Shown one piece after another: positions 16,878-40,110 of a stretch of DNA of 64,000 nucleotides; positions within the stretch are counted from its first letter, which is position 1, and each line of letters starts with the position of its first letter. A program made the position numbers and the translations under genes. The DNA lies in contig JAGXKN010000001.1 of the NCBI GenBank assembly GCA_018335195.1, positions 62,001 to 126,000 on the forward strand. The letters are read 5' to 3'. The notes under the pieces are model-generated. The model was not told where the DNA came from, made no database searches, and worked only from the letters and a program-made list of their open reading frames with translations. The DNA is from Desulfobacterales bacterium. Its GTDB lineage: Bacteria > Desulfobacterota > Desulfobacteria > Desulfobacterales > Desulfosalsimonadaceae.

Positions 16878-17672
16878 ATGACGGCAGATCTCCCAAGCGC
16901 CTTGGTGATTACGGACAATAAAAAGTTCCGGCGGGTGGTGCGTACCGATGACCTGGAGACCGTCAACCTTCCCAGCGGCGGCGTATCAAGGGAAGAGCTC
17001 GCGCAGATCGGCGTGGGCGGGACGTTTTTTAAAAACGGGAAAAAATACCATGTGCTTGACTGCGACGCCCATGACCGGGTCATGAGCGGCATCAAGCGCG
17101 ACACCCAGATCATATACCCCAAGGACGCGGGTTATATCCTGCTGCGGCTCGATATTTTTCCCGGCAAGTCCGTGGGCGAGGCCGGCACCGGATCGGGCGG
17201 AATGACCCTGCTCATGTCCCGGGCCGTAGGGAATACAGGCCGGATCTATACCTATGAAAAAAACGCCCAGCTCGCCGGCAGGATCCGCAAAAACCTGCAA
17301 CCTGCAGAGGACTTTGCCAACGTGCATCTTTATACCCGCTCCCTGGAAGAAGGCATTTGCGAAACCGGGCTGGATGCGTTTTTTCTGGATGTGCGTGATC
17401 CATCCGATGTGCTCGCCCAAGTGTCTGCTGCACTCAAGCCCGGCGGGCACCTGGGCGTGCTGGTGCCCACGGCCAACCAGATGACAAAGCTGCTATGGAC
17501 GCTCAATAATTATCCTTTTCTGGTCACCGAGGCCGCAGAGACCTACCTGCGCACCTACAAGCTCAATCCCTCGCGCTTCCGTCCCCAGGACCGCATGGTG
17601 GGACATACGGGATATCTCCTGTTTGCCCGGGCGCTGCAGGCAGAATCTGAAGATTTTCAGGAAAATACGTAA
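16878..17672 (+). CDS. trmI: tRNA (adenine-58-N1)-methyltransferase, TrmI family
   Basis: IYPKDAGYILLRLDIFPGKSVGEAGTGSGGMTLLMSRAVG; DAFFLDVRDPSDVL; track start 16680 lies inside the tRNA, so start moved to MTADLPS. Confidence 0.82.
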   Translation: MTADLPSALVITDNKKFRRVVRTDDLETVNLPSGGVSREELAQIGVGGTFFKNGKKYHVLDCDAHDRVMSGIKRDTQIIYPKDAGYILLRLDIFPGKSVGEAGTGSGGMTLLMSRAVGNTGRIYTYEKNAQLAGRIRKNLQPAEDFANVHLYTRSLEEGICETGLDAFFLDVRDPSDVLAQVSAALKPGGHLGVLVPTANQMTKLLWTLNNYPFLVTEAAETYLRTYKLNPSRFRPQDRMVGHTGYLLFARALQAESEDFQENT

Positions 17673-18730
17673 TAGCAGATCACCGGCTCCAGCTTGTTTT
17701 TCACATACACTTCGCCCTGACACGTACAGGAAAAATCCCCGGGGCAATTCAGATAGGTCTGCTCGCCGATGATAATTTCCCCGCCGTTGGCCATTTGCTC
17801 CAGGCGGGCGGCCACGTTGACACAATCGCCGATCACGGTGTAATCCATCCGGTTCGATGATCCGATATTCCCGATAATTGCACTGCCGGTGTTTATCCCG
17901 ATGCCGATCTCAAAGTATTCCTGCCCGGCCTGCCTGCGCGCTTCCATCATCTCTTTTGCCGCGGCCTGCATTTCAACAGCCGAGGCAACGGCGTTTTCCG
18001 AGGCGCTTTTCTCGGTTTCCACCAGCCCGAACACGCCAATGAGCTGATCCCCCACAAATTTGTCAAGCAGACCGGCGTTTCGGAAAATAATATCCACCAT
18101 CATGCCAAAGTACGCATTTAACATCTCCACCACCGCTTCTGCGGGCATGCGCTCGGCAATGGCGGTAAACGAGCGGATATCGGCAAACAGCACCGTGACT
18201 TCGCGCCGCTCGGTTTCCAGGAAAACCCCGTCCTTGAGATTGACAAGCTTTTCCACAAGGTTGTTGCCCACATACCGACTCAGGCGGTTGCGAAGCTGCT
18301 CCTCCTGCTTGCTGCGCTCATAGGAAAGGGCCAGATCCCGGGCATAGACCATCAATTGTGCGGCCTGCTCCTGGTTCTTGCGGTTTATCTCCGCCAGCCG
18401 CTGATAAAGGGAGTTGAAATGATCCGCGATCTCGTTTAGTTCGCGATCGGCCCGGATTTCAACGGAACCGCTTCTCCCGCCTTCCTGCATCCTGCCGGTC
18501 TCGCGGCTCAGATAATCCAGGAAATCCGCGGATCGGCGTATCAACATAAAACCCGTCAGCATGGAAAAAAGCACCAGGGGGATTAACAGGAGCATGGTCC
18601 GGGTAAATGGAACCTGCTGCCTGACAAACAGATAGACCACCAGCAGAAAGGGAATAATTCCGATCAGGGCCAGGCCGACCCGCAGTTTGCCGTAAAACGA
18701 GGTGTAATCTCTTCTTCTGCGCCTGCTCAT
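17657..18730 (-). CDS. Membrane-anchored class III adenylate/guanylate cyclase
   Basis: REVTVLFADIRSFTAIAERMP, DKFVGDQLIGVFG, IGINTGSAIIGNIGSSNRMDYTVIGDCVNVAARLEQ; N-terminal TMs and HAMP-like linker. Confidence 0.9.
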   Translation of the reverse strand: MSRRRRRDYTSFYGKLRVGLALIGIIPFLLVVYLFVRQQVPFTRTMLLLIPLVLFSMLTGFMLIRRSADFLDYLSRETGRMQEGGRSGSVEIRADRELNEIADHFNSLYQRLAEINRKNQEQAAQLMVYARDLALSYERSKQEEQLRNRLSRYVGNNLVEKLVNLKDGVFLETERREVTVLFADIRSFTAIAERMPAEAVVEMLNAYFGMMVDIIFRNAGLLDKFVGDQLIGVFGLVETEKSASENAVASAVEMQAAAKEMMEARRQAGQEYFEIGIGINTGSAIIGNIGSSNRMDYTVIGDCVNVAARLEQMANGGEIIIGEQTYLNCPGDFSCTCQGEVYVKNKLEPVICYYVFS

Positions 18731-19191
18731 CCACGGTAACCGTTTTTCTCGGCATCGAGGCGTTCAAAGTCAAAGGCGCAGTGGAACTTGATTGCAATAC
18801 GCTGGGCCTGGCCGGACAAATCGTCATCCACGGGCTCAGGAGGGTGAGTCCGCACCACGCTGGCTTCGTTGTAAATGCGCGCCCGCACGTCATCTGCGGC
18901 ATCTAGCTGAATGGAGATGTGCAATAACTGGCCCGGAAAGTACCTGCCCGGATAAGACGAAATAAACTGGGCGCCGCTGCCGGAGACATCCCGAAGCAGG
19001 CTTTTTTCCTCAAAAGGCTGGCTGTGGGGATCATTTCCGGAAACCATGATCGGAAAGGAAACGCAATATCGGTCAAAATCCCGTTGTTCGAGGCTTTTCC
19101 CTTTGTCGGACGGCATTTTTTTCCGGGGCCGCGTTTTGGCAAAAAAGCGCTTGATTCGTTCCCACCAACCCATTTTTCCGGATTCAAACAA
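18727..19191 (-). CDS. PilZ-domain-like protein
   Basis: Region RYCVSFPIMVSG...SLLRDVSGSGAQFISSYPGRYFPGQLLHISIQL with PilZ-type D.S..G. Confidence 0.65.
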   Translation of the reverse strand: MFESGKMGWWERIKRFFAKTRPRKKMPSDKGKSLEQRDFDRYCVSFPIMVSGNDPHSQPFEEKSLLRDVSGSGAQFISSYPGRYFPGQLLHISIQLDAADDVRARIYNEASVVRTHPPEPVDDDLSGQAQRIAIKFHCAFDFERLDAEKNGYRG

Positions 19192-19217: not shown

Positions 19218-21614
19218 TCAGATAAGGCAGACCCGGCGCACTTCACTGATATCGGTCAGACCCTGAAACATTTTCAAGATCCCGTCCTGGACCAGGGTGG
19301 TCATGCCTTCCTTGCTGGCCTGGTAGAACAATTCCTCTGCGCTGGACTGTTTCTTGATCATCCGCTTGATCTCTTGAGTGCCGTCCATGAGTTCGTGGAT
19401 ACCCAGACGGCCCTTGTACCCGGTGTGACTGCATTGATCACACCCCTTGGGTGTATACAGCCTCAGATCGTCGGAATAGGTAATCCCGGTTTGTTCAAAG
19501 TCTTCAGGACCGTAAACTTCCACGATATCGTCGAATTCTTCCTTTGCGGGATGATATTCCTGACGACAGTTTTTGCACAGGCGGCGCAAAAGCCGCTGGG
19601 CAAGCACGCAGATAAAGGCATCCGAAAAGTTCAGGGGATTTAACCCCATGTCCAGAAGCCGGGTCACGGTTTCCGGGGCGCTGTTGGTATGCAGGGTGGA
19701 AAAGACCAAATGACCGGTCAGGGAGGCTTCAACGCCGATGGAGGCGGTTTCATAGTCCCGCATCTCACCCACCATGATCACATCCGGGTCGGCACGCAGA
19801 AAAGAACGCATGATCCGGGCAAAATCCAGGCCGATCTTCTTGTGCACCTCGACCTGCCGCAGGCCTTCCTGGGTAATTTCCACCGGATCTTCAGCCGCCC
19901 ATATCTTGCGCTCCGGGGTGTTGATATGGTGCAGAGCCGAGTGCAGGGTAGTGGTCTTACCCGATCCGGTTGGCCCAACGCACAAGATAAGTCCGTAGGG
20001 CTTGGTGATGGCCTTTCGCAGGACATTGAGATTTCGCTCTGTCATGCCCATTTCATCGAGCTTCATGGCACCGGCCGAAGCCAGGATCCGCAACACCGCG
20101 TCTTCATACCCCCCGGCCGTTGGCATGGTGGCCACACGAAGTTCAAACTGCGGCAATCCCCGGCGCTTGAACTTGATCTTGCCGTCCTGGGGCATCCGCC
20201 GCTCGGCAATATCCAGGCCGGCCATGATCTTGATACGCGATAGCAGGGCATTGGCAAATGTATTGGGAATTTCCAGAAAATCCTGGCAGACCCCGTCTAT
20301 GCGATATCTGATCTTGGTCTTTTTGGTTATCGGCGAAGGCTCTACGTGCACGTCGGATGCATTTCTCCGATAGGCCGTGATCAGGGCCTGGTCCACCAGT
20401 CGAACCACCTTGCCCGAGGCCTCGGTGTAGGCCTCCACATCCTCTTCTTCATCTTCCTCTTCCTCGAATTCAATCTCCGGCAGATCCTCGAAATCCATGG
20501 CGGGCGAGGAGGGGGCGGACGTCTCCTTACCGGCCTTGGCCGATGATTTCTTTTGTTCGAAGAAATGGTTGATAATGGCTTCGATATCTTCCTTGATGCC
20601 GACGGAAAAAGTGAACTTGTTGGTGTTGAACAGGGCCTTTGCATGGTCGAGTTTGCGAAGGTCCTTGGGATCATCGAGCAGAATTTCAATATGGTCGATC
20701 TCCCAGTGCAGGGGCACCCACAGATCCTGGAGCAGGAAAGGCTTTTTCAGGTTGGCCAGAAGCTCATGCGGGACTTCCATCTTGGGATCATAGGTTTTAT
20801 ACGGGCAGTTATAATATGCCGAAAGCGATTTTCCGATCTCGTCCTTGGAGATCTTGAACTGATCCATCAAGACCTGCTCAACGCTTTTCCGCGATTTCTT
20901 GGACTGGGCCAGCGCCTTCTGGAGCTGGTCGGTGGTCACGATTTCATTGCGCAGCAGATAGTCGTAGCGGGATTCATAACGCTGACCCGGCTCAACAGCC
21001 TCGATTTTTTCCTTGATCTTGGGGTACACCGGGTCGATCTTCTGAACGGATTTATAGCACTCAACCGCCAGCTCTTTGTAATCGCGCTGCTCCAGTGCCT
21101 GGCCGAGCTCGTATTTCATTGAAGCCCGGGTTTTTTCATCAATCTTGTTTTCAGAACAGATTCTATCGACTTCCTGGCCCATCTGGGATGGTGGAAACAG
21201 GGAAAACAAGCACTCCAGTACATCCGGATAAAAATTCTTGATCGGATAGTCGGTACCAAACAGCTTCTGGTACTCACCCAGGGCTTCCTTATAGAGCCCC
21301 AGTTCCTTGAACGCCCGTGCGCTGTCACAAATTTCCGGTGCGCTTTCTCCGATGGAAAGGCCGGATTTGATGTGGGAAACGTCTTCTTTGGAAAGCTCCT
21401 GGGCGGGAACCCCCTGCTCAACTTCCTCGATTTCCTTGCTCAGGGTATTGATTTTTTCCTCAATATTTGCACGGGTTTCGTCGGTCAAATCCGAAAAGGA
21501 CGAAAGGACCTCCTTGTACACGGTAAGGGCTTCCTCATAGAGCCCGTGCCCTTCATATGCCTCGGCCACTTTCATTCTCGAATCAAATCCGTTTTGCTCC
21601 GTCACACTCTCCAT
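19218..21614 (-). CDS. TPR-fused PilB/GspE/MshE-family secretion ATPase
   Basis: Walker A VGPTGSGKTTTLHSALHHIN; Walker B DPDVIMVGEMRDYETA; GHLVFSTLHTNSA; zinc CKNC and CDQC; N-terminal TPR-like repeats and MshE-N-like region. Confidence 0.92.
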   Translation of the reverse strand: MESVTEQNGFDSRMKVAEAYEGHGLYEEALTVYKEVLSSFSDLTDETRANIEEKINTLSKEIEEVEQGVPAQELSKEDVSHIKSGLSIGESAPEICDSARAFKELGLYKEALGEYQKLFGTDYPIKNFYPDVLECLFSLFPPSQMGQEVDRICSENKIDEKTRASMKYELGQALEQRDYKELAVECYKSVQKIDPVYPKIKEKIEAVEPGQRYESRYDYLLRNEIVTTDQLQKALAQSKKSRKSVEQVLMDQFKISKDEIGKSLSAYYNCPYKTYDPKMEVPHELLANLKKPFLLQDLWVPLHWEIDHIEILLDDPKDLRKLDHAKALFNTNKFTFSVGIKEDIEAIINHFFEQKKSSAKAGKETSAPSSPAMDFEDLPEIEFEEEEDEEEDVEAYTEASGKVVRLVDQALITAYRRNASDVHVEPSPITKKTKIRYRIDGVCQDFLEIPNTFANALLSRIKIMAGLDIAERRMPQDGKIKFKRRGLPQFELRVATMPTAGGYEDAVLRILASAGAMKLDEMGMTERNLNVLRKAITKPYGLILCVGPTGSGKTTTLHSALHHINTPERKIWAAEDPVEITQEGLRQVEVHKKIGLDFARIMRSFLRADPDVIMVGEMRDYETASIGVEASLTGHLVFSTLHTNSAPETVTRLLDMGLNPLNFSDAFICVLAQRLLRRLCKNCRQEYHPAKEEFDDIVEVYGPEDFEQTGITYSDDLRLYTPKGCDQCSHTGYKGRLGIHELMDGTQEIKRMIKKQSSAEELFYQASKEGMTTLVQDGILKMFQGLTDISEVRRVCLI

Positions 21615-21714: not shown

Positions 21715-22083
21715 TCAGGACCTGCGTTTTTTAAACAACTGTCCGAATCTGCCGCCCGGCTTCAGCCGATCCAGGGAGGACTGCAGCACCTCGCAGTTCA
21801 GCCGCACCATGGAAACCGGGGCGATATCATCGAGCACGACCATGAAAAACCCGTGCTGAATTTTCCGGATATACACCCGTCGTCTTTCAAATACGAGTTC
21901 AGCCTCCACGATATCGGAAAACTCCGGGATAAACGAGTTCCAGTGGACGCTGCCAATCCGGGCTTCCTCTTCCCGGTAATCGCCGGAAAAACGGCTCAAA
22001 AGCAGCCGGCCGTTCCCGTCGAGCGCAATGACGCCATGGACGCCTTCGATTCCGAGTATGTCCTTGAAAATATCTTTCATCAC
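21715..22083 (-). CDS. Roadblock/LC7-like protein
   Basis: Short alpha/beta protein MMKDIFKDILGIEGVHGVIALDGNGRLLLSRF...FFMVVLDDIAPVSMVRLNCEVLQSSL, roadblock-like pattern. Confidence 0.6.
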   Translation of the reverse strand: MMKDIFKDILGIEGVHGVIALDGNGRLLLSRFSGDYREEEARIGSVHWNSFIPEFSDIVEAELVFERRRVYIRKIQHGFFMVVLDDIAPVSMVRLNCEVLQSSLDRLKPGGRFGQLFKKRRS

Positions 22084-22143: not shown

Positions 22144-23313
22144 TCACATCACCGCATCAATAATTCGGTCCCGGGGTGTGTCGGCTTTCATTAAGACCAC
22201 GGCGGCCCGTTGGCCCGGAACAATTACAGATTGCTTGCCGCGCCCCTTGTTCAAATAGATTGCATGCAGGCTGCCGGTATTGAAAATTTTTCCCATATGG
22301 GAAATCTGTTCAATCAGGTAATGCCACTGGAGGTCCTCATAAATATCTTCCACGTCGTCTTCTTTGCCGAGGCTGCTATTTATTTTCTGACGAACAAGCT
22401 CTGCGCCGGATTCCGGTTCTGCCTGCCCGGTTTCGGCAGGCGCAGCTTGCTGCGGCCGGGCTTTAGGCTCAGCAGCGGGCTTGGCTTGCGCCGAAGCCGG
22501 TGGCGGGGTATCGGCCTCCGGATTCGAATTGGAAGCCCGCCGGTTTTGCACCGGTGTATCCAGCAGGATTTCGTCCCGTGATTTCTCCGAGGATTGGGAT
22601 TCCGCTTCCTCTTCCTCCGGGTTGAAATCCTCGCTGCTTTCATCTTTTGTGCGCATGGCATCCAGCAGGATCGCCTGCAGTTCCCCCTCCAGCTGTTTTT
22701 CCGATACAGGGCACTGATTTTCGATGGACACGGAAACCCCGGCCCAAGAAAAAATCTCGTAAGCCGCCTCGCGACCCTGGCTGCCTCCGTAGCGGGCGTT
22801 TAGCAACTCCCCGTTGCGAAAAAACAACGCTCCGGATTTTCCGGCGCTTTTGTTCATTACCCGCAGCGTGCAGGTCTGCTGCTCCATTTCAACGAGCTGA
22901 AGAAAGGTTTCCAGTGAAACATTGTGCAGGCTACCGCCCTCACTTTTTTTCTTGAGCGTGCGGTTAATTTTCCCGGTCAGATCGGAGGCGGTAATCGGCT
23001 TGGTCATGTAGTCATCCGCACCGCTCTTGAAAACCACCTCCCGGGTCTTGGGCCGGTCATAGGCAGTGATAATCAGCACTGAGATATCCGGATACTGATG
23101 CAGAATCCGGTTTAACAGCTCAAAACCGTCGATGCCGGGCATCCGCAAATCGCTCACCACAACGCTGACATCCTCTGCGGCCAGCACGTCCAATGCCTGC
23201 TGTCCGTCATGGGCGGCCAATACGGTGAATGTATCCGCATATTCCGCCAGTTCCTTCTGCATCGCCCCAAGCCATGCCGTATCGTCGTCAACGAGTAAAA
23301 CCTTCGGTGTCAT
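22144..23313 (-). CDS. Response regulator with receiver domain and DUF4388-like domain
   Basis: LLVDDDTAWLGAMQKEL, SVVVSDLRMPGIDGFELL, ADDYMTKPI; then HNVSLETFLQLVEMEQQTCTLRVMNKSAGKSGALFFRNGELLNARYG. Confidence 0.85.
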   Translation of the reverse strand: MTPKVLLVDDDTAWLGAMQKELAEYADTFTVLAAHDGQQALDVLAAEDVSVVVSDLRMPGIDGFELLNRILHQYPDISVLIITAYDRPKTREVVFKSGADDYMTKPITASDLTGKINRTLKKKSEGGSLHNVSLETFLQLVEMEQQTCTLRVMNKSAGKSGALFFRNGELLNARYGGSQGREAAYEIFSWAGVSVSIENQCPVSEKQLEGELQAILLDAMRTKDESSEDFNPEEEEAESQSSEKSRDEILLDTPVQNRRASNSNPEADTPPPASAQAKPAAEPKARPQQAAPAETGQAEPESGAELVRQKINSSLGKEDDVEDIYEDLQWHYLIEQISHMGKIFNTGSLHAIYLNKGRGKQSVIVPGQRAAVVLMKADTPRDRIIDAVM

Positions 23314-23439: not shown

Positions 23440-24498
23440 CTATAGGCGCACACCGAATCTGTCAATTTCGTCCACATACTCGGTGCGCCAGGAATCGAGC
23501 TGCCTGCGCAGCGGTCTCAGCAGCCCGTTTGCTTCGGCAAGCTCGTAAACACATTCCTCAATTGCCGCAACCAGTTCACTTAACCGGGCATTGCCTGTAA
23601 ACCGGACCTGGCCGGCAGAGTACTTGAACTCTGCGGCAAAAGGATCCAAAAATTCATATTTGTCGATTTTCTCGACAAATTTCTTGTTCAGCAGCGTCTC
23701 AAAATCAGACTTGATTCTCCGGCTTGCCCGGACCTGGGATTCCAGGGCGGCCAGAAGCGTCTGCAACATCTCTAAAACGCGCCGGCGGCTGACCGCATCT
23801 TTTTCCGAAGACCGCCCCCCGGATTTACGCGTTGATTTGACCTTTGCCCCGGGCTCTGCCGAGGCTTTCTTTTTACCGCCAGGCCCTTCTTCCGGCTCCT
23901 GAGCTTCGGCCTCCAAAAACACTTGGCTGACGTTGAACTTACCGCCGTATTCCTTGGAGCGCCGGATCAAATCGTCCCGGTACTCCTGGGAACGGTCCAC
24001 GCTGCCGGCCCCGTCTGCAGAGGATCCGCCAATGACCTGGCCCTTGTAAATAAACAGGAGCCCGCCTTCGGAATTGCTTAACTCCACATCAATGTACCCG
24101 GTGAGCTGTTCTCCCTCCATTTTCTTGATCAGCCCCTCCAGATCGGTAAACTCGGAGGTCAGATCCTGATAAATCGTCTTGGAATTGGGCAGATTGGCCC
24201 AGAAATAAAGCCGCTCCGGCTGAATCCGGTAAACCGAGACGGTGAAGTTGTTTTGGGCTGCCTTTTGGAGTATGCGGTCAATGGCCTCCTGGCCGTTTAA
24301 GTGATGTTTGCGGTTTTCAAAATACCCGTTGACCAGGTTCTGCTCGTCAAAAAACACCACGGCTTCAGCCACCGGAGATTTGAAATACACCACGCCGGCG
24401 CCCAGTTCCCCTTGATAATGCTCAAACAGTTTATCAATGTCCAGGTAATAACTGTTCAAATCCTGGACCACCGGTTTTTCTCTGGGAATGATGATCAT
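23440..24498 (-). CDS. Uncharacterised protein with DUF4388-like segments and charged linker
   Basis: Start placed at MIIIPREKPVVQD; GELGAGVVYFKSPVAEAVVFFDEQNLVNGYFENRK and LTGYIDVELSNSEGGLLFIYKGQVIGGSS. Confidence 0.65.
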   Translation of the reverse strand: MIIIPREKPVVQDLNSYYLDIDKLFEHYQGELGAGVVYFKSPVAEAVVFFDEQNLVNGYFENRKHHLNGQEAIDRILQKAAQNNFTVSVYRIQPERLYFWANLPNSKTIYQDLTSEFTDLEGLIKKMEGEQLTGYIDVELSNSEGGLLFIYKGQVIGGSSADGAGSVDRSQEYRDDLIRRSKEYGGKFNVSQVFLEAEAQEPEEGPGGKKKASAEPGAKVKSTRKSGGRSSEKDAVSRRRVLEMLQTLLAALESQVRASRRIKSDFETLLNKKFVEKIDKYEFLDPFAAEFKYSAGQVRFTGNARLSELVAAIEECVYELAEANGLLRPLRRQLDSWRTEYVDEIDRFGVRL

Positions 24499-24554
24499 TT
24501 TTTTTAGTCCACCGCTTTTTTTAGACGGTTCGGGCGAACACGCATTCTTATTGA

Positions 24555-24610
24555 AGACGAAACAAGCAATGCGCTGTGATCCGGGCAGACGCACATTGCT
24601 TGTTTCGTCT
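24555..24610. repeat. Perfect 17-bp inverted repeat, 22-nt loop, between two genes of the signalling cluster
   Basis: agacgaaacaagcaatg ... cattgcttgtttcgtct. Confidence 0.85.
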
Positions 24611-24621
24611 TGGGCTGCCGG

Positions 24622-25866
24622 TTATCTGCGGCGTCGCAGCCGTTCAATGGAAAAACGCAGGCTGTCCTGCATCCGGGAAATGGCTTCTGCCAGATTGCCG
24701 ATTTCGTCCCTGGAACGAACCTCGACCTCCGCTTCCAGATCGCCGACACTGATGCGGTCTGCGGCTTCTGTCAGGTACCGGATATTACGGCTCAGCCGAT
24801 ATCCGTATATGATGATGCACAGGCCGATAACCAAAATTACCCCGGCCAGAATACCCAGGTTGATATTTCGGGTGCGGATGGTCATCTGCTCCACGTCTTC
24901 TTTCAGCCCCTCGGTCTTTTGCGTGAACTCGTCCATGTAGGCCGTGGCCAGCATTGAAAACGGCTTGCCTTCAATCTCGATGGGCGAAATGGCCATGTAT
25001 TTTTCCCGCAGTTTCCCGTCCGGGTCCTTCCACATGTAATTGCCGGTGGAAACCTCGCGCCCCTTGGAATTCTTGAGAATCGCAAAGAACTCCTCGAAAT
25101 AGGGTCCCAGGGCCTTTCGCAGCGTATTGATATCATCAATGCCCACGAGATTCGGGTTGGGATGCGTCCATATCGTCCATCCCTGGTCTTCCTCCGGCTC
25201 CGGCTCCTGGATCAGGCAGGTATATCCGGTATCTCCAACCTCCTGCACGGCGATCTGGTTAAACTCCGGGTCATAGGAGAAATCCTCCCGCTGCAGGTAC
25301 GGATGCGCCTTGAGATATATCTCGGCCTGCAGTGCCACGTCCTCGGCCTTCTGCTGGAGCTTTTCCTTACCGGACTCGGCAACCAGTTCGGTGCTTTCAT
25401 CAGTAATGTCCGTGGCCAGCTCATTCAACTGCATCTGGGAGAAGTATCCGGATGCTGCAATCAATGCCACCGGGATAATCAGAAAGAGGAAAAACATTTT
25501 TCCCCGCAATCCGATCCATCCCCTCGGGCCTTGCCCGGCAGATTTTTCCGGTGCCGGGGAGGCTGCCGACGATACGGCGGCAGAAGGCTCTTCAGGTCCG
25601 GGTTGCGGTTCCGGCTGGCTCGGGATCTCTGTTTCCATGGAAGACGGTTGGCTTTCTTCCGGCGACGCATAAGCGGTCTCCGAAAGAGAGGTTTCTCCGT
25701 ATGCTTCGGCGGGCGATTCGGTCGTTTCCAGCAGTTTGGACAATTGGGTGACATGACCGCACTCGCCACATCTGACCCGCACGCTTTTGCCCTTGTAACG
25801 CTCCAGCTTATCGGGATCGATGTGGTAAACCTTCCCGCATTCCTCGCAAATCACCGTCATGATCAA
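24622..25866 (-). CDS. Membrane sensor-like protein: N-terminal zinc ribbon, TM, periplasmic Cache-like domain, TM, HAMP; no output domain
   Basis: CEECGKVYHIDPDKL...RCGECGHVTQ; TM MFFLFLIIPVALIAASGYF; TM LGILAGVILVIGLCIIIYGYRLS followed by HAMP, ending RLRRRR. Confidence 0.82.
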   Translation of the reverse strand: MIMTVICEECGKVYHIDPDKLERYKGKSVRVRCGECGHVTQLSKLLETTESPAEAYGETSLSETAYASPEESQPSSMETEIPSQPEPQPGPEEPSAAVSSAASPAPEKSAGQGPRGWIGLRGKMFFLFLIIPVALIAASGYFSQMQLNELATDITDESTELVAESGKEKLQQKAEDVALQAEIYLKAHPYLQREDFSYDPEFNQIAVQEVGDTGYTCLIQEPEPEEDQGWTIWTHPNPNLVGIDDINTLRKALGPYFEEFFAILKNSKGREVSTGNYMWKDPDGKLREKYMAISPIEIEGKPFSMLATAYMDEFTQKTEGLKEDVEQMTIRTRNINLGILAGVILVIGLCIIIYGYRLSRNIRYLTEAADRISVGDLEAEVEVRSRDEIGNLAEAISRMQDSLRFSIERLRRRR

Positions 25867-25971: not shown

Positions 25972-26445
25972 CTATGCCTGCAGTTCCCGCAATTTCTTCA
26001 CCATGGCCTGCTGAAAGGCGACCTTGCGTTCTTCGCGCATGATCTGACGCGCCAGCAGATCCACCAGTTCGGCTGCCCGATGGGCCGGAAAATTTTTTGA
26101 ATCTTCTCCCATCTCGCTGATTTCATCTTCAATGGCCACATCTGCGATCGGCCCCATGGCGCGGGAAAGCTGTGCGGAAAGAAAATCAAAAAAATCTTTT
26201 CCCAGCGTGGCCATATTATCCTTTGCAGGCTCGCAAAGCTTGAGGTCATGCAGCTTGGTCAGCACGCTGCGAAGATCCTTCATGCTCATATTCAGGGATT
26301 GGGCCACCTGACTGACTGTTTTTTTCCCGTCAAGCTCCATTAGTACCTGCAGCATTTGACTATCCAGGGATACTTCTCCCAAATCCGCATGAACCGTGCG
26401 CCTTAAGACCATGCGGGAAATGTCGCCTGAAAAAATATTCGCCAT
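25972..26445 (-). CDS. Uncharacterised protein with winged-helix-like N-terminal region
   Basis: LDSQMLQVLMELDGKKTVSQVAQSLNMSMKDLRSVLTKLHDLKLCE; in line with the cluster. Confidence 0.6.
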   Translation of the reverse strand: MANIFSGDISRMVLRRTVHADLGEVSLDSQMLQVLMELDGKKTVSQVAQSLNMSMKDLRSVLTKLHDLKLCEPAKDNMATLGKDFFDFLSAQLSRAMGPIADVAIEDEISEMGEDSKNFPAHRAAELVDLLARQIMREERKVAFQQAMVKKLRELQA

Positions 26446-26490: not shown

Positions 26491-27408
26491 CTACGCGCCC
26501 AGATTCTTAAGAATCTGGTGCAGGGTACGGAATTCCGCCTGTATGGTCTTTCTCAATTCCGCGACAATGTAGTCGATCACTTCCTGATTCTGCAGCACCG
26601 CGGCAGGTTTTTCCTCAGCTGCCGCAATGGGTTCTCCCCCGACTGCTGCGGCGGACTCTTCCCCGAGTTCCATCGCGGGCGCTTGTTCGGCTGCCGGAGG
26701 GGACTCCTCCTCGAGCATCACAACGGGCGTTTCCTCGGCTGCTGCGGCGGGCTCCGCTTCAGCCGCCGCGGCGGGTTCTTCCTCTGCCGGCGCGGCGGGC
26801 TTCTCTTCTGCCGGTGCAGCGGCAGCCGGTTCCGGCTCACCGGACTTTTTCTTCGAAGTCACCCGTTCCTTGAAGTCTTTGAAGTTCCTGATCTCTTCGG
26901 CCAGCAGCCGTTTTTTTTGCGCCCGGGGCATATCCGGGGTCAGCAGCGCTTTTTCAAAACTCGTAAACACCGAGGCGACAAACTTGAGGGCATCGGGATG
27001 GGCGCGGGATTTTTTGGCCTTGATGTATTTTCCCACGGATTCGTGAAGCTTGAGAAACGTAGAAAAAATTTTATCATTCCCGTACTGCTGCTGCAGCTGC
27101 CGTACCTCCTTTAAAAACGACACCATACTTTCTTCATTGATTTCCCAGTCAATGCCGAACACCAGTGCTTTGAGCTCGTTTAAGGGGGAGTCAGCTGTTT
27201 CAAAATCAGCGGCCTGCCGGGCCCGCGATTGCGACTGCTGCTGTTGGCCGGTTTCTTTTTTACCTGCTGCTTCAGATTTTTCTGCTTCCTGCCCGCCGGT
27301 GACTTCAGCCTGAGGCGCCTCCTGCTCGCCGGGCTCATCCTCCCCGAACAATTCCTCCAGCCTACTTGATACCTGGGCGCCGATGTCGTCATCATCGCTG
27401 TGAGTCAA
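26491..27408 (-). CDS. Uncharacterised protein with Ala/Glu/Pro-rich repetitive linker
   Basis: N-term half contains EEHGD-like acidic region and SQSRARQAADFETADSPLNELKALVFGIDWEINEESMVSFLKEVRQLQQQYG; linker EEKPAAPAEEEPAAAAEAEPAAAAEETP. Confidence 0.65.
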   Translation of the reverse strand: MTHSDDDDIGAQVSSRLEELFGEDEPGEQEAPQAEVTGGQEAEKSEAAGKKETGQQQQSQSRARQAADFETADSPLNELKALVFGIDWEINEESMVSFLKEVRQLQQQYGNDKIFSTFLKLHESVGKYIKAKKSRAHPDALKFVASVFTSFEKALLTPDMPRAQKKRLLAEEIRNFKDFKERVTSKKKSGEPEPAAAAPAEEKPAAPAEEEPAAAAEAEPAAAAEETPVVMLEEESPPAAEQAPAMELGEESAAAVGGEPIAAAEEKPAAVLQNQEVIDYIVAELRKTIQAEFRTLHQILKNLGA

Positions 27409-27420
27409 TGACTTCCCCTC

Positions 27421-28026
27421 CTATTCCAGTTTCTTGCGCAATGAGCTGACCGTTAACGCAATAATTTTTTTCATCGTGGCAGCCACATTATCTCCGCGAA
27501 TGGCACTGGCTGAAAAGTAAGGCGACTTTAACTGGTTGTTTAAATCCTTTTCCAGGGTTTCCACCGAAAGGATCGGAATCCCTTCATCCGCTAGGTCCCG
27601 CTTGTTGTACTGCATCACCAGGGGGATATTCGACATGTTCTTGTTAAATGCCTCCAGGTTCTCCTTTAAATTCTGCAGCGACCGGATATTCATCTCCCGG
27701 CGCAGGTCCATGGAATCGGCAACAAACACGATGCCGTCCACGCCCCGGAGCACCAGCCTGCGGGTGGCATTGTATTTAACCTGTCCCGGAACCGTGTATA
27801 ACTGGATCTTGATGCTGTGGCCCTTGATTTCCCCGATATCAAACGGCAAAAAATCAAAAAACAGCGTACGGTCGCCATAGGTCTTGACCGTCACCATTTC
27901 GTTTAAGATCCGTTTCTTGAATTTGCGGTTAATATATTCAAGATTCGTGGTTTTCCCGCCTCGACCAGGCCCGTAATAAACGATTTTGACCTGAACCTCC
28001 CGCTTTTTCGGATTTATTAACGCCAA
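27421..28026 (-). CDS. MglA-like small Ras-superfamily GTPase
   Basis: VQVKIVYYGPGRGGKTTNLEYI; TLFFDFLPFDIGEIKGHSIKIQLYTVPGQVKYNATRRLVLRGVDGIVFVADS; VMQYNKRDL. Confidence 0.92.
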   Translation of the reverse strand: MALINPKKREVQVKIVYYGPGRGGKTTNLEYINRKFKKRILNEMVTVKTYGDRTLFFDFLPFDIGEIKGHSIKIQLYTVPGQVKYNATRRLVLRGVDGIVFVADSMDLRREMNIRSLQNLKENLEAFNKNMSNIPLVMQYNKRDLADEGIPILSVETLEKDLNNQLKSPYFSASAIRGDNVAATMKKIIALTVSSLRKKLE

Positions 28027-28162: not shown

Positions 28163-28555
28163 TCAGATCAGGGACTGTATGCGCTTGATCGCTTCGCCCA
28201 CTTTCAATCTCAAAAAACCCAGCGAGACATTTTTATTAAAAATCGTCAGCAAAAGCAAATCATCCACGACCTTGGAAAAATGGATGCTTTCTTCTTCACC
28301 CTTGTGAAACAGCAGGGAAAATTCCTGTTCGCCGATAATGTTTGCCATCGCGCTGACAGCGCCATAATTTCCAGCCGCCAGAGCCGCCAGCGAAAACACG
28401 TCGTGATCAGACTCCCCGCTGTCAAGATTGACAATGACATTGCCGGCAAGGTCCATCAGGATCACGCTCTGCACGCCCAGATCGATGAGCTCCTTTTGCA
28501 GGATTTCCTCTATGGACTCAATCTGTTCCTTGGTAAAATCAATTGTAAACTCCAT
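28163..28555 (-). CDS. Roadblock/LC7 domain protein (MglB-like)
   Basis: GVQSVILMDLAGNVIVNLDSGESDHDVFSLAALAAGNYGAVSAMANIIGEQEFSLLFHKGEEESIHFSKV. Confidence 0.8.
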   Translation of the reverse strand: MEFTIDFTKEQIESIEEILQKELIDLGVQSVILMDLAGNVIVNLDSGESDHDVFSLAALAAGNYGAVSAMANIIGEQEFSLLFHKGEEESIHFSKVVDDLLLLTIFNKNVSLGFLRLKVGEAIKRIQSLI

Positions 28556-37558: not shown

Positions 37559-38338
37559 TCAATCACAGCGGGCGCCTTCGGGAAGATCTGTGGAAAACGC
37601 TTCGGCCGAGGGTTTGATATTGATCCAGCAGCGCTCAACGAAAACCCGCATCCGGCTGCCGGATTCGTCTGAAATTTCCAGGGCAAAGGGCATGGGTTGG
37701 CCGCTGACCTGTCGGCGGCGCGTGATTTTTGCCCGGTAATCGGGGCCGCGCCATCCGTAGACCGTCACTTCCCGGACATGGGCCATATCCGGCGAAAACC
37801 GGATGGTTTCCACTGTGCCGAAAAACCGCTTCTTCAACACCACCAGCTTCTCCCCGGAATCCATATCGTATGCGGCCGCTGAATCGTAATCCACCAGCGG
37901 CGCCCCGCCGCCCAAAAGCCGCACCAGATCTCCGGCCGCCAGGTCCATGCCGACAAGCGGCGCCAGGCTTCTGCCTCCGGGTGTTTCCCTGCGCAGGCAG
38001 CCCTCATCCTCGCTGTGAAAAATAAAATAACATTTGCGCGGATCGCAGATCATCCGGGCAAATGCCTGGCCCGTCAGGCTCAGGGCCGCAACCCGCAGCC
38101 GGCCGTCAGGGGCGGCCACCCACGCGGCCCGGACACCCCATGAGTTGCCGCTGTTTTGGATGCCGATCCGGCCGATGCCCTTGTAAGCGGCCAGCTCCGC
38201 ATTTTTTGCCTTTACGGTGCGCAGCATCCGGGCCGAATCCGGAGCGGAAAGCTGTGAGGTAACCCCCGGAGGCTGCCTGCCGGCACATGCGGCAAGCAGC
38301 ACCAGACAGAGAAGAAACGGCCACCTGGAAAGCTTCAA
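37559..38338 (-). CDS. Outer-membrane lipoprotein, LolB/DUF4292-like
   Basis: Lipobox LLAACAG; YKGIGRIGIQNSGNSWGVRAAWVAAPDGRLRVAAL resembles LolB/DUF4292. Confidence 0.6.
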   Translation of the reverse strand: MKLSRWPFLLCLVLLAACAGRQPPGVTSQLSAPDSARMLRTVKAKNAELAAYKGIGRIGIQNSGNSWGVRAAWVAAPDGRLRVAALSLTGQAFARMICDPRKCYFIFHSEDEGCLRRETPGGRSLAPLVGMDLAAGDLVRLLGGGAPLVDYDSAAAYDMDSGEKLVVLKKRFFGTVETIRFSPDMAHVREVTVYGWRGPDYRAKITRRRQVSGQPMPFALEISDESGSRMRVFVERCWINIKPSAEAFSTDLPEGARCD

Positions 38339-40110
38339 GGCTGTACCCCTTGCTTTTCCAAAGCTTCAATCTTATCTGCCAGGGCTTCCTTGTCCTTTTT
38401 CCTGCCGGCGGTTTCCCGGGCCTTCCGGTAATACTGCAGGGCCTTTTCCCGCTGGTTAAGCTTGATATACACATCAGCCAGGTGTTCGAAGATCACGGGG
38501 TCGTCTGCCACCCGGTCAACCGCCCGCTCAAGATATTTCCGGGCCGCTTCGTAGTCGCCCTTGCGGTAATAGACCCATCCCATACTGTCGAGAATATAGC
38601 CGCTGCCGGGGTCCAGATCCAGGGCCTGCCGGATCAGGGACTCGGCCTTGTCAAGCTTCACACCCTGGTCTGCGTACGTATAGCCCAGATAGTTCAGGGC
38701 GTCCGCATTTTCCGAATCCATCCGGATGACCTGCTTCATTTTTTCGATGGCCGCATCCCGGTCTCCCTTGCGGTCATAGAGCACCCCGAGTTCGTAATGC
38801 AGTTCCACGTTTTCCGGCTCCATGGAAAGCCCTTCTTTGAGCAGTTCCGCAGCCTGTTCATAGAGGCCCTGTTCCTGATAAAAAGCGCTCAAATAAGGAA
38901 TCAGATCCAACCGGGCGGTGCTTTCCACATTGTCCATGGCGATTTCCAGCACGGAAACCGCTTGCCCGGGTTTTCCCTGCTTGTTGTAAATCAGGGCCCG
39001 ATGAATCATGGCATCCGGATAAAACGCGGCATCCGGGCCCACGGAGTGGAAATGCGCCAGCGCCGGCTCAAACTGCTCCATCATATACCGGGTGGCGCCG
39101 GCCAGGTAATGCAGTGCTGGATCATCCGGCGCATATTCGAGCATGCCGGACAACACGGTCATGGCATCGGGATATCGCTCCCGGGACAACAATTGCCGGA
39201 TCACGTTTCTGACCACCGCTGAATCAGAAGAAACCCGGTCTGCCAGATCCGACCACAGCTCGCCGGCCTTTTTCTTTTTTCCGCGCGTTTCATAAAGCAG
39301 TCCCAGTTCAATGGCTGCGGCCACGTTACCCGGGTGCCGGGAAAGCAGTTTCTCATACTGGGTCATCGACTGATCCTGCTGGCCCCGGGTGTTATAAATT
39401 TCAATCAGCCCGACGCGGGGTTCGACCAGCTCGGGCTTGATCTCCAGGCTTTTCTTGTAGGCGTCAATGGCTTTTTCAATTTCACCCATCTGCGTATAGG
39501 CCTTTGCCAGATAGAAAAAGCCGGTATAGTTTTGCGGGAAGCGCTCCAAAAAAGGCTCCAACAGGTCCGCGGCATTCTCATACGCCTCGTCATGAAGATA
39601 CAGCCGGGCCAGCACCGGGTATATATCTTCCCGGCCCGGATCCTTTTGCAGCACCTTTTCATAGGCCTGCTGCGCCGCATCATTTTTACCCATGGACTGC
39701 CTGATGGAGCCGGCTACAATCAGGGCTTCCACGTTGTCCGGCGCCTGCTCGACAACCGCCTCCACCAGGGCCAGGGCATCTTCCTTGCGGTCGAGTTCCA
39801 GGTAAATCCGGGCAAGGTCTCTTTTCAAAAACAGATCCCCGGGCGATGCTTTAACCGCCTTCTCCATGAATCCGGCGGCTTTTTCCTTCCTGGCGGCCTT
39901 GAGTGCAAGCCGGGCACGGATAAAATAATAGTACGCATTGGCCGGGGGCTCGGGTTCCGCCGCCCTCACCTGATCACCGGGGTCGACATGGTCGGCCGAT
40001 GCGGGGGACGCTGCCTGCTTGTTTCCGGTTGCGCATCCGCCGATGCACAGCATCAACGTCAAGACCGCCGCCGGGAGAACGTAATATAACTTCATTAATT
40101 TATTCAACAA
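38335..40110 (-). CDS. TPR-repeat lipoprotein
   Basis: Lipobox LCIGGCA; many TPR units (e.g. VELHYELGVLYDRKGDRDAAIEKMKQVIRMDSENADALNYLGYTYADQG). Confidence 0.88.
   Translation of the reverse strand: MLNKLMKLYYVLPAAVLTLMLCIGGCATGNKQAASPASADHVDPGDQVRAAEPEPPANAYYYFIRARLALKAARKEKAAGFMEKAVKASPGDLFLKRDLARIYLELDRKEDALALVEAVVEQAPDNVEALIVAGSIRQSMGKNDAAQQAYEKVLQKDPGREDIYPVLARLYLHDEAYENAADLLEPFLERFPQNYTGFFYLAKAYTQMGEIEKAIDAYKKSLEIKPELVEPRVGLIEIYNTRGQQDQSMTQYEKLLSRHPGNVAAAIELGLLYETRGKKKKAGELWSDLADRVSSDSAVVRNVIRQLLSRERYPDAMTVLSGMLEYAPDDPALHYLAGATRYMMEQFEPALAHFHSVGPDAAFYPDAMIHRALIYNKQGKPGQAVSVLEIAMDNVESTARLDLIPYLSAFYQEQGLYEQAAELLKEGLSMEPENVELHYELGVLYDRKGDRDAAIEKMKQVIRMDSENADALNYLGYTYADQGVKLDKAESLIRQALDLDPGSGYILDSMGWVYYRKGDYEAARKYLERAVDRVADDPVIFEHLADVYIKLNQREKALQYYRKARETAGRKKDKEALADKIEALEKQGVQP

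Follow-up and report, generated by a model that had tools for sequence, protein, structure and literature searches.

A PilB-type ATPase fused to a TPR domain in an MglA operon of the Desulfobacterales: a candidate GTPase-controlled type IV pilus motor

Introduction

How MglA-GTP reaches the pilus motor is an open question in Myxococcus, and a gene fusion from the sulfate-reducing Desulfobacterales bears on it: what could a PilB-type ATPase receive through an N-terminal TPR domain when it is encoded in one operon with an MglA-type GTPase? In Myxococcus the TPR protein SgmX is required for polar PilB (PMC7519303); its three C-terminal TPRs bind MglA and its N-terminal ones activate the type IVa pilus (T4aP), and no direct SgmX-PilB contact was detected in M. 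xanthus (PMC11580455). The fusion gene lies in a 64,000-nucleotide stretch of the genome of a Desulfobacterales bacterium (the window, to which positions refer unless a locus is named). A search of the open-licence literature, including that on MglA in Desulfobacter, returned no report of a TPR-PilB fusion.

Results

The gene occupies 19218..21614 on the minus strand, starts with ATG and encodes a protein of 798 aa, in which Pfam and alignment delineate TPR, MshEN and PilB-type ATPase regions (TPR-ATPase hereafter). A preliminary description of the locus had read the N-terminal ~200 aa as TPR repeats, and profile, structure prediction and fold comparison agree with that reading for residues ~1-205 (21000..21614, minus strand), which combine repeated helix pairs with a TPR profile and fold. 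Several Pfam TPR models match residues 11-41 and 165-195, most of them slightly below cut-off with this single sequence; a profile of the domain (alignment A6, 69 homologues) matches essentially only natural or designed TPR-type proteins in the PDB, with a best E of 7e-17. The AlphaFold2 model of residues 1-212 is all helix in antiparallel pairs (mean pLDDT 87.6, pTM 0.61) and forms two helical lobes with a linker near residues 67-75. Foldseek places it closest in the PDB to consensus TPRs and to MamA (E 7e-5, prob 1.00), with low global TM because the superhelix curvature differs. Stand-alone homologues of the domain of ~250 aa, without adjoining MglA, were also encountered (L192:6169-6930, L193:6251-7003 and similar ones).

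The MshE-N-like and full ATPase region that had been proposed to follow the repeats is likewise present. The MshEN domain (residues ~214-356; 20547..20975, minus strand) is recognized by Pfam at residues 277-356 (E 4.2e-8), and the PilB/GspE ATPase core (residues 399-794; 19233..20420, minus strand) by orthologue alignment and by the Pfam T2SSE model over its whole length (E 4.8e-119). The core has the Walker A, Asp box, Walker B-like DPDVxMxGExRD, His box and CxxC metal site of PilB/GspE-type extension ATPases (SDVHVEP at 420, the Asp box; GPTGSGKT at 547, Walker A; DPDVIMVGEMRD at 609; GHLVFSTLHT at 634, the His box; CxxC pairs at 680 and 725), and among 18 aligned TPR-ATPase orthologues it is nearly invariant, with catalytic motifs intact and unchanged throughout. 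The protein's score of 514.8 bits against TIGR02538, the PilB equivalog, is below the curated cut-off of 675.65, and we therefore do not name it PilB but regard it only as a PilB-like functional counterpart. An acidic stretch was correctly noticed in the preliminary description (13 of the 23 residues at 378-400 are D or E; 20415..20483, minus strand) but was misplaced there: it lies at the junction of MshEN and ATPase and not between the TPR domain and the rest, so that a role as separator of TPR and motor was rejected. An acidic linker also occupies the equivalent position in the solved PilB structure 5tsg, which makes the one seen here ordinary.

An MshEN domain was taken as a c-di-GMP receptor where it carries the motif RLGxx(L/V/I)(L/V/I)xxG... 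with its R, G, G and Q, and that of TPR-ATPase does not. Its version of the 24-residue motif keeps the hydrophobic pattern, and in motif 1 S-Y-E-S replaces R-G-G-Q (SRYDYLLRNEIVTTDQLQKALAQS), leaving none of the four key residues, against a perfect match with all four in the MshE of the same genome. The signature residues are gone in every one of the 81 fusions checked, with 4 to 7 mismatches of 13 positions against 0 in MshE controls; PilBs of the same order that score above the PilB cut-off largely keep the motif, more so than the fusions. Given this loss, the fusion is, as far as its sequence can tell, probably blind to c-di-GMP through MshEN, and control by that route was rejected.

TPR-ATPase belongs to an operon of ~11 genes, all on the minus strand, in which it is preceded, in order, by genes for a Roadblock protein, MglA, g305, g157, a zinc-ribbon/HAMP protein, g384, a REC-PATAN protein and g122. 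The GTPase (27421..28026, 201 aa) matches Thermus and Myxococcus MglA in the PDB with E of 1.9e-52 and 3e-51; it has the P-loop GPGRGGKTT and, within its G domain, the intrinsic R53 and Q82 of the MglA type, both invariant in alignment A4. The Roadblock/LC7 (MglB-like) protein before it (28163..28555, 130 aa; Pfam Robl_LC7 E 1.9e-8) scores 58 bits against the MglB model, for which the cut-off is 200. Directly after MglA comes the uncharacterised g305 (26491..27408), which is also retained in the compact MglA-g305-TPR-ATPase locus L202, followed by the small winged-helix-like g157 (25972..26445; weak matches only), a Pfam-defined protein with MJ0042 zinc ribbon and HAMP (24622..25866), the uncharacterised g384 (23440..24594), which is kept in the operon and probably starts further downstream than the listed GTG, and a response regulator in which Pfam finds REC and DUF4388 (PATAN) (22144..23313). 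Directly upstream of TPR-ATPase, g122 (21715..22083) has no Pfam match and aligns with Roadblock by hhalign at a probability of 9%; its fold is settled by an AlphaFold2 model (pLDDT 86.8) whose PDB matches are Ragulator subunits, MglB and MglC, so that the operon holds two Roadblock-fold proteins. Downstream lie a PilZ-domain protein (18727..19191, 154 aa; Pfam PilZ E 5.4e-6) and a class III adenylate/guanylate cyclase with a HAMP-like segment (17657..18730; Pfam Guanylate_cyc E 6e-29). The REC-PATAN protein, the second Roadblock-fold protein, the PilZ protein and the cyclase go beyond the preliminary description, which had called the ATPase an orphan, aptly insofar as no other pilus gene is adjacent. 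The zinc-ribbon protein ends immediately behind HAMP; domain searches show no output domain in it, and it may be a membrane sensor or anchor of the operon. A TPR-repeat protein of 591 aa, not SgmX-sized, is encoded near the operon at window positions 38335-40110.

The neighbourhood with an MglA-like GTPase, also pointed out at the start, proved to be a genuine and conserved linkage. The long operon order is kept in every family-level genome examined whose DNA reaches far enough and recurs with modifications in other families of Desulfobacterales, as do compact MglA-adjacent forms; by title, the 80 fusion loci found in a scan that sampled one genome per species come from Desulfobacterales, Desulfobacteraceae or generic Delta-/Proteobacteria MAGs. 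Where 7.5 kb or more of DNA can be read upstream of the fusion, MglA is present at 33 of 42 loci, a count in which L135 is entered as lacking MglA, yet is operon-type and has readable upstream DNA that stops short of the MglA position. Counted by genome, MglA and the fusion share a contig and lie no more than 12 kb apart in at least 66 of 101. Three types of locus were distinguished: type A is the long operon with MglA, type B has MglA directly upstream of the fusion, and type C has no MglA nearby, as judged where the flank is readable, and a REC-PAS gene downstream. Compact loci with MglA directly upstream and without g122 or REC-PATAN are L134, L139, L142, L143, L148, L149, L267 and L268. 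Type C forms a single clade of the tree (17 rows), and some of its genomes also carry an MglA-linked copy of the fusion; from this MglA-less subclade with its REC-PAS gene it follows that the TPR domain may take inputs other than MglA.

Across 243 genomes of Desulfobacterales the fusion occurs in 102, having been assigned by hand from score and reading-frame length with stand-alone TPR proteins excluded. MglA is present in 100 of the 102 and in 104 of the 141 genomes without the fusion (Fisher p 6e-8, ignoring shared ancestry). Fusion genomes without MglA, which the preliminary description had thought would speak against the link if common, thus number two, and in one of them (G246) the contig begins at g305, which in other loci comes directly after MglA; the missing MglA is thus probably an assembly cut. 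Canonical PilB, scoring above the TIGR02538 cut-off, is found in 0 of 102 fusion genomes and in 27 of the 141 others (Fisher p 3e-7, again ignoring shared ancestry), and TPR-ATPase appears to replace it. Genus g112 is mixed, with canonical PilB in two species (G190, G231) and TPR-ATPase in three (G169, G220, G256). The mutual exclusion may partly reflect shared ancestry, and since the assemblies are incomplete, mostly fragmented MAGs, missing genes may be gaps.

The genome containing the window encodes T4aP components in pilMNOPQ (contig C83; L187), pilC-pilS (C33; L070) and pilT and pilU (C41; L041). It also has a type II secretion system (T2SS; C31) and an MSHA-type set (C43), each with an adjacent ATPase of its own, GspE in the former and MshE in the latter. 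No ATPase of this genome exceeds the TIGR02538 cut-off for canonical PilB. It does have a paralogue of TPR-ATPase with GAF-MshEN-ATPase architecture (contig C2, L040:7615-9939, 774 aa), a type that is widespread in the order and whose MshEN motif is degenerate too. With four motors for three platforms, and the GAF-fused paralogue intact, the motor role of TPR-ATPase is not unique in this genome, and its assignment rests on sister genomes. Two of these (G005 and G020) each encode two platforms of the PilC/GspF type, and their intact PilB-type ATPases likewise number two, GspE and TPR-ATPase; a third (G007) has GspE, MshE and TPR-ATPase for GspF, MshG and PilC, with a Tad set in addition. In all three, motors and platforms pair one to one only if TPR-ATPase serves PilC, and no other intact ATPase is left for the PilC of the T4aP. 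The GAF-fused paralogue of G005 (L189:9254-11638) is degenerate, with Walker A (now GPPKSGRT) and the Walker B region both lost, and none was found in sister genomes G002 and G007. PilM was found in each of the eight genomes examined.

Two further sets of ATPase-like proteins were seen in these genomes. PilB-like pseudo-ATPases of 574 aa, with no recognisable Walker B, lie among response regulators (L241:1635-3359 and L242:1316-3040, in G020 and G015), and the T2SS cluster on contig C31 encodes a 541-aa protein whose MshEN motif is intact and whose ATPase region is PilT-like (L038:10107-11732), to which a 538-aa frame beside GspE in G007 is similar.

Homologues of the fused TPR domain also occur as separate proteins of 294-304 aa in four genomes (L190, L191, L196, L197; 75-80 bits with the domain HMM), where they adjoin MglA and a DUF4388 (PATAN) + cNMP-binding protein. 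Among the genomic hints that the TPR module may itself belong with MglA, their position is the strongest.

Discussion

That TPR-ATPase is a T4aP extension motor is fairly well supported, and we infer that it drives the T4aP; the TPR domain would be its input module and MglA-GTP the putative ligand. Taken together, a T4aP extension motor with a fused SgmX-like TPR input module, c-di-GMP input lost and MglA-GTP docking on the TPR domain is a reading to which we give slightly better than an even chance. In the corresponding mechanism the TPR-ATPase product would be the extension ATPase ("PilB") of the cell's T4aP; its c-di-GMP input via MshEN would have been lost and the N-terminal TPR domain would have taken over as input receptor. 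The Roadblock proteins would switch MglA, which would receive its signal from the operon's own REC-PATAN regulator, and MglA-GTP would, by analogy, most likely dock on the TPR domain, thereby recruiting the motor hexamer to, or activating it at, the PilC/PilMNOPQ base, so that a single protein would cover the tasks that in Myxococcus are divided between SgmX and PilB. More tentatively, and at somewhat less than an even chance, we propose that this constitutes a one-protein, GTPase-gated pilus motor, in which MglA-GTP binds the ATPase's own TPR domain and gates its recruitment or activity, and which replaces the c-di-GMP-type PilB in a large part of the Desulfobacterales.

A caution against direct docking of MglA is that TPRs bind many things. 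The fusion could be the T4aP motor and its TPR domain could instead dock REC-PATAN, g122 or PilM, with MglA acting one step upstream on that partner. The g122 and REC-PATAN genes are the closest constant upstream neighbours of the fusion, the MglA-less clade retains a response-regulator gene (REC-PAS) beside it, and a two-hybrid test gave no interaction between M. xanthus MglA and any of PilB, PilT and PilM (PMC7519303); PATAN-REC proteins, moreover, bind PilB1 in Synechocystis (PMC9090330), which makes the REC-PATAN protein a second plausible input. We nevertheless hold this arrangement to be rather unlikely, as compact loci place MglA directly upstream of the fusion without g122 or REC-PATAN, and stand-alone TPR homologues neighbour MglA.

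The other two alternatives concern the motor itself. TPR-ATPase might serve another filament (MSHA-like or T2SS-like) or mix with its GAF-fused paralogue, which would then drive T4aP extension; that paralogue is widespread in the order and, in the genome analyzed here, intact and ~4 kb from a PilR-like regulator. The retention of pilMNOPQ, pilT/U and TPR-ATPase in sister genomes where this paralogue is absent or degenerate, and the dedicated ATPases of the T2SS and MSHA systems, render such a division of labour improbable. It could also be supposed that TPR-ATPase responds to c-di-GMP like any ordinary PilB/MshE-type ATPase and that its N-terminal extension is incidental, given that the MshEN fold is present and a PilZ gene lies downstream; this view is disfavoured and has very little probability in our estimation, for the signature residues are missing from all fusions checked, and the extension is conserved in fusions across the order and common to stand-alone proteins beside MglA.

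The closest known counterpart of the favoured reading, MglA-GTP acting on the motor through its TPR domain, is the SgmX-MglA-PilB pathway of Myxococcus xanthus, which shares with it MglA, Roadblock partners, a TPR input and a motor of the PilB type; both presumably decide where and when pili extend. There, however, the TPRs reside on a separate 14-TPR protein, SgmX, and mglA is not beside pilB, whereas here one short TPR domain and the motor form a single polypeptide in an operon with MglA. With MshE and PilB proteins whose MshEN binds c-di-GMP, TPR-ATPase has in common the MshEN plus T2SSE architecture and the acidic linker, but the c-di-GMP signature is lost and a TPR domain added. As for the PATAN-REC proteins that act on Synechocystis PilB1 (PixE and others), their likeness here is a REC + DUF4388 (PATAN) gene two genes upstream of the motor; to our knowledge, cyanobacterial PilB1 has not been described as TPR-fused. 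Some MglA genes near PATAN genes were recorded in the survey of Wuichet and Sogaard-Andersen (2014; PMC4316618), the accessible part of which describes no TPR-PilB fusion or motor in these neighbourhoods.

The operon offers a compact set of purifiable parts (MglA, two Roadblock-fold proteins, the PATAN regulator and the fusion) for testing. A natural fusion of TPR domain and motor in an MglA operon suggests that the MglA signal and the motor meet physically and that the polarity switch controls the pilus motor directly, without a separate adaptor such as SgmX; it further suggests that pilus motors can exchange a c-di-GMP input for a small-GTPase input.
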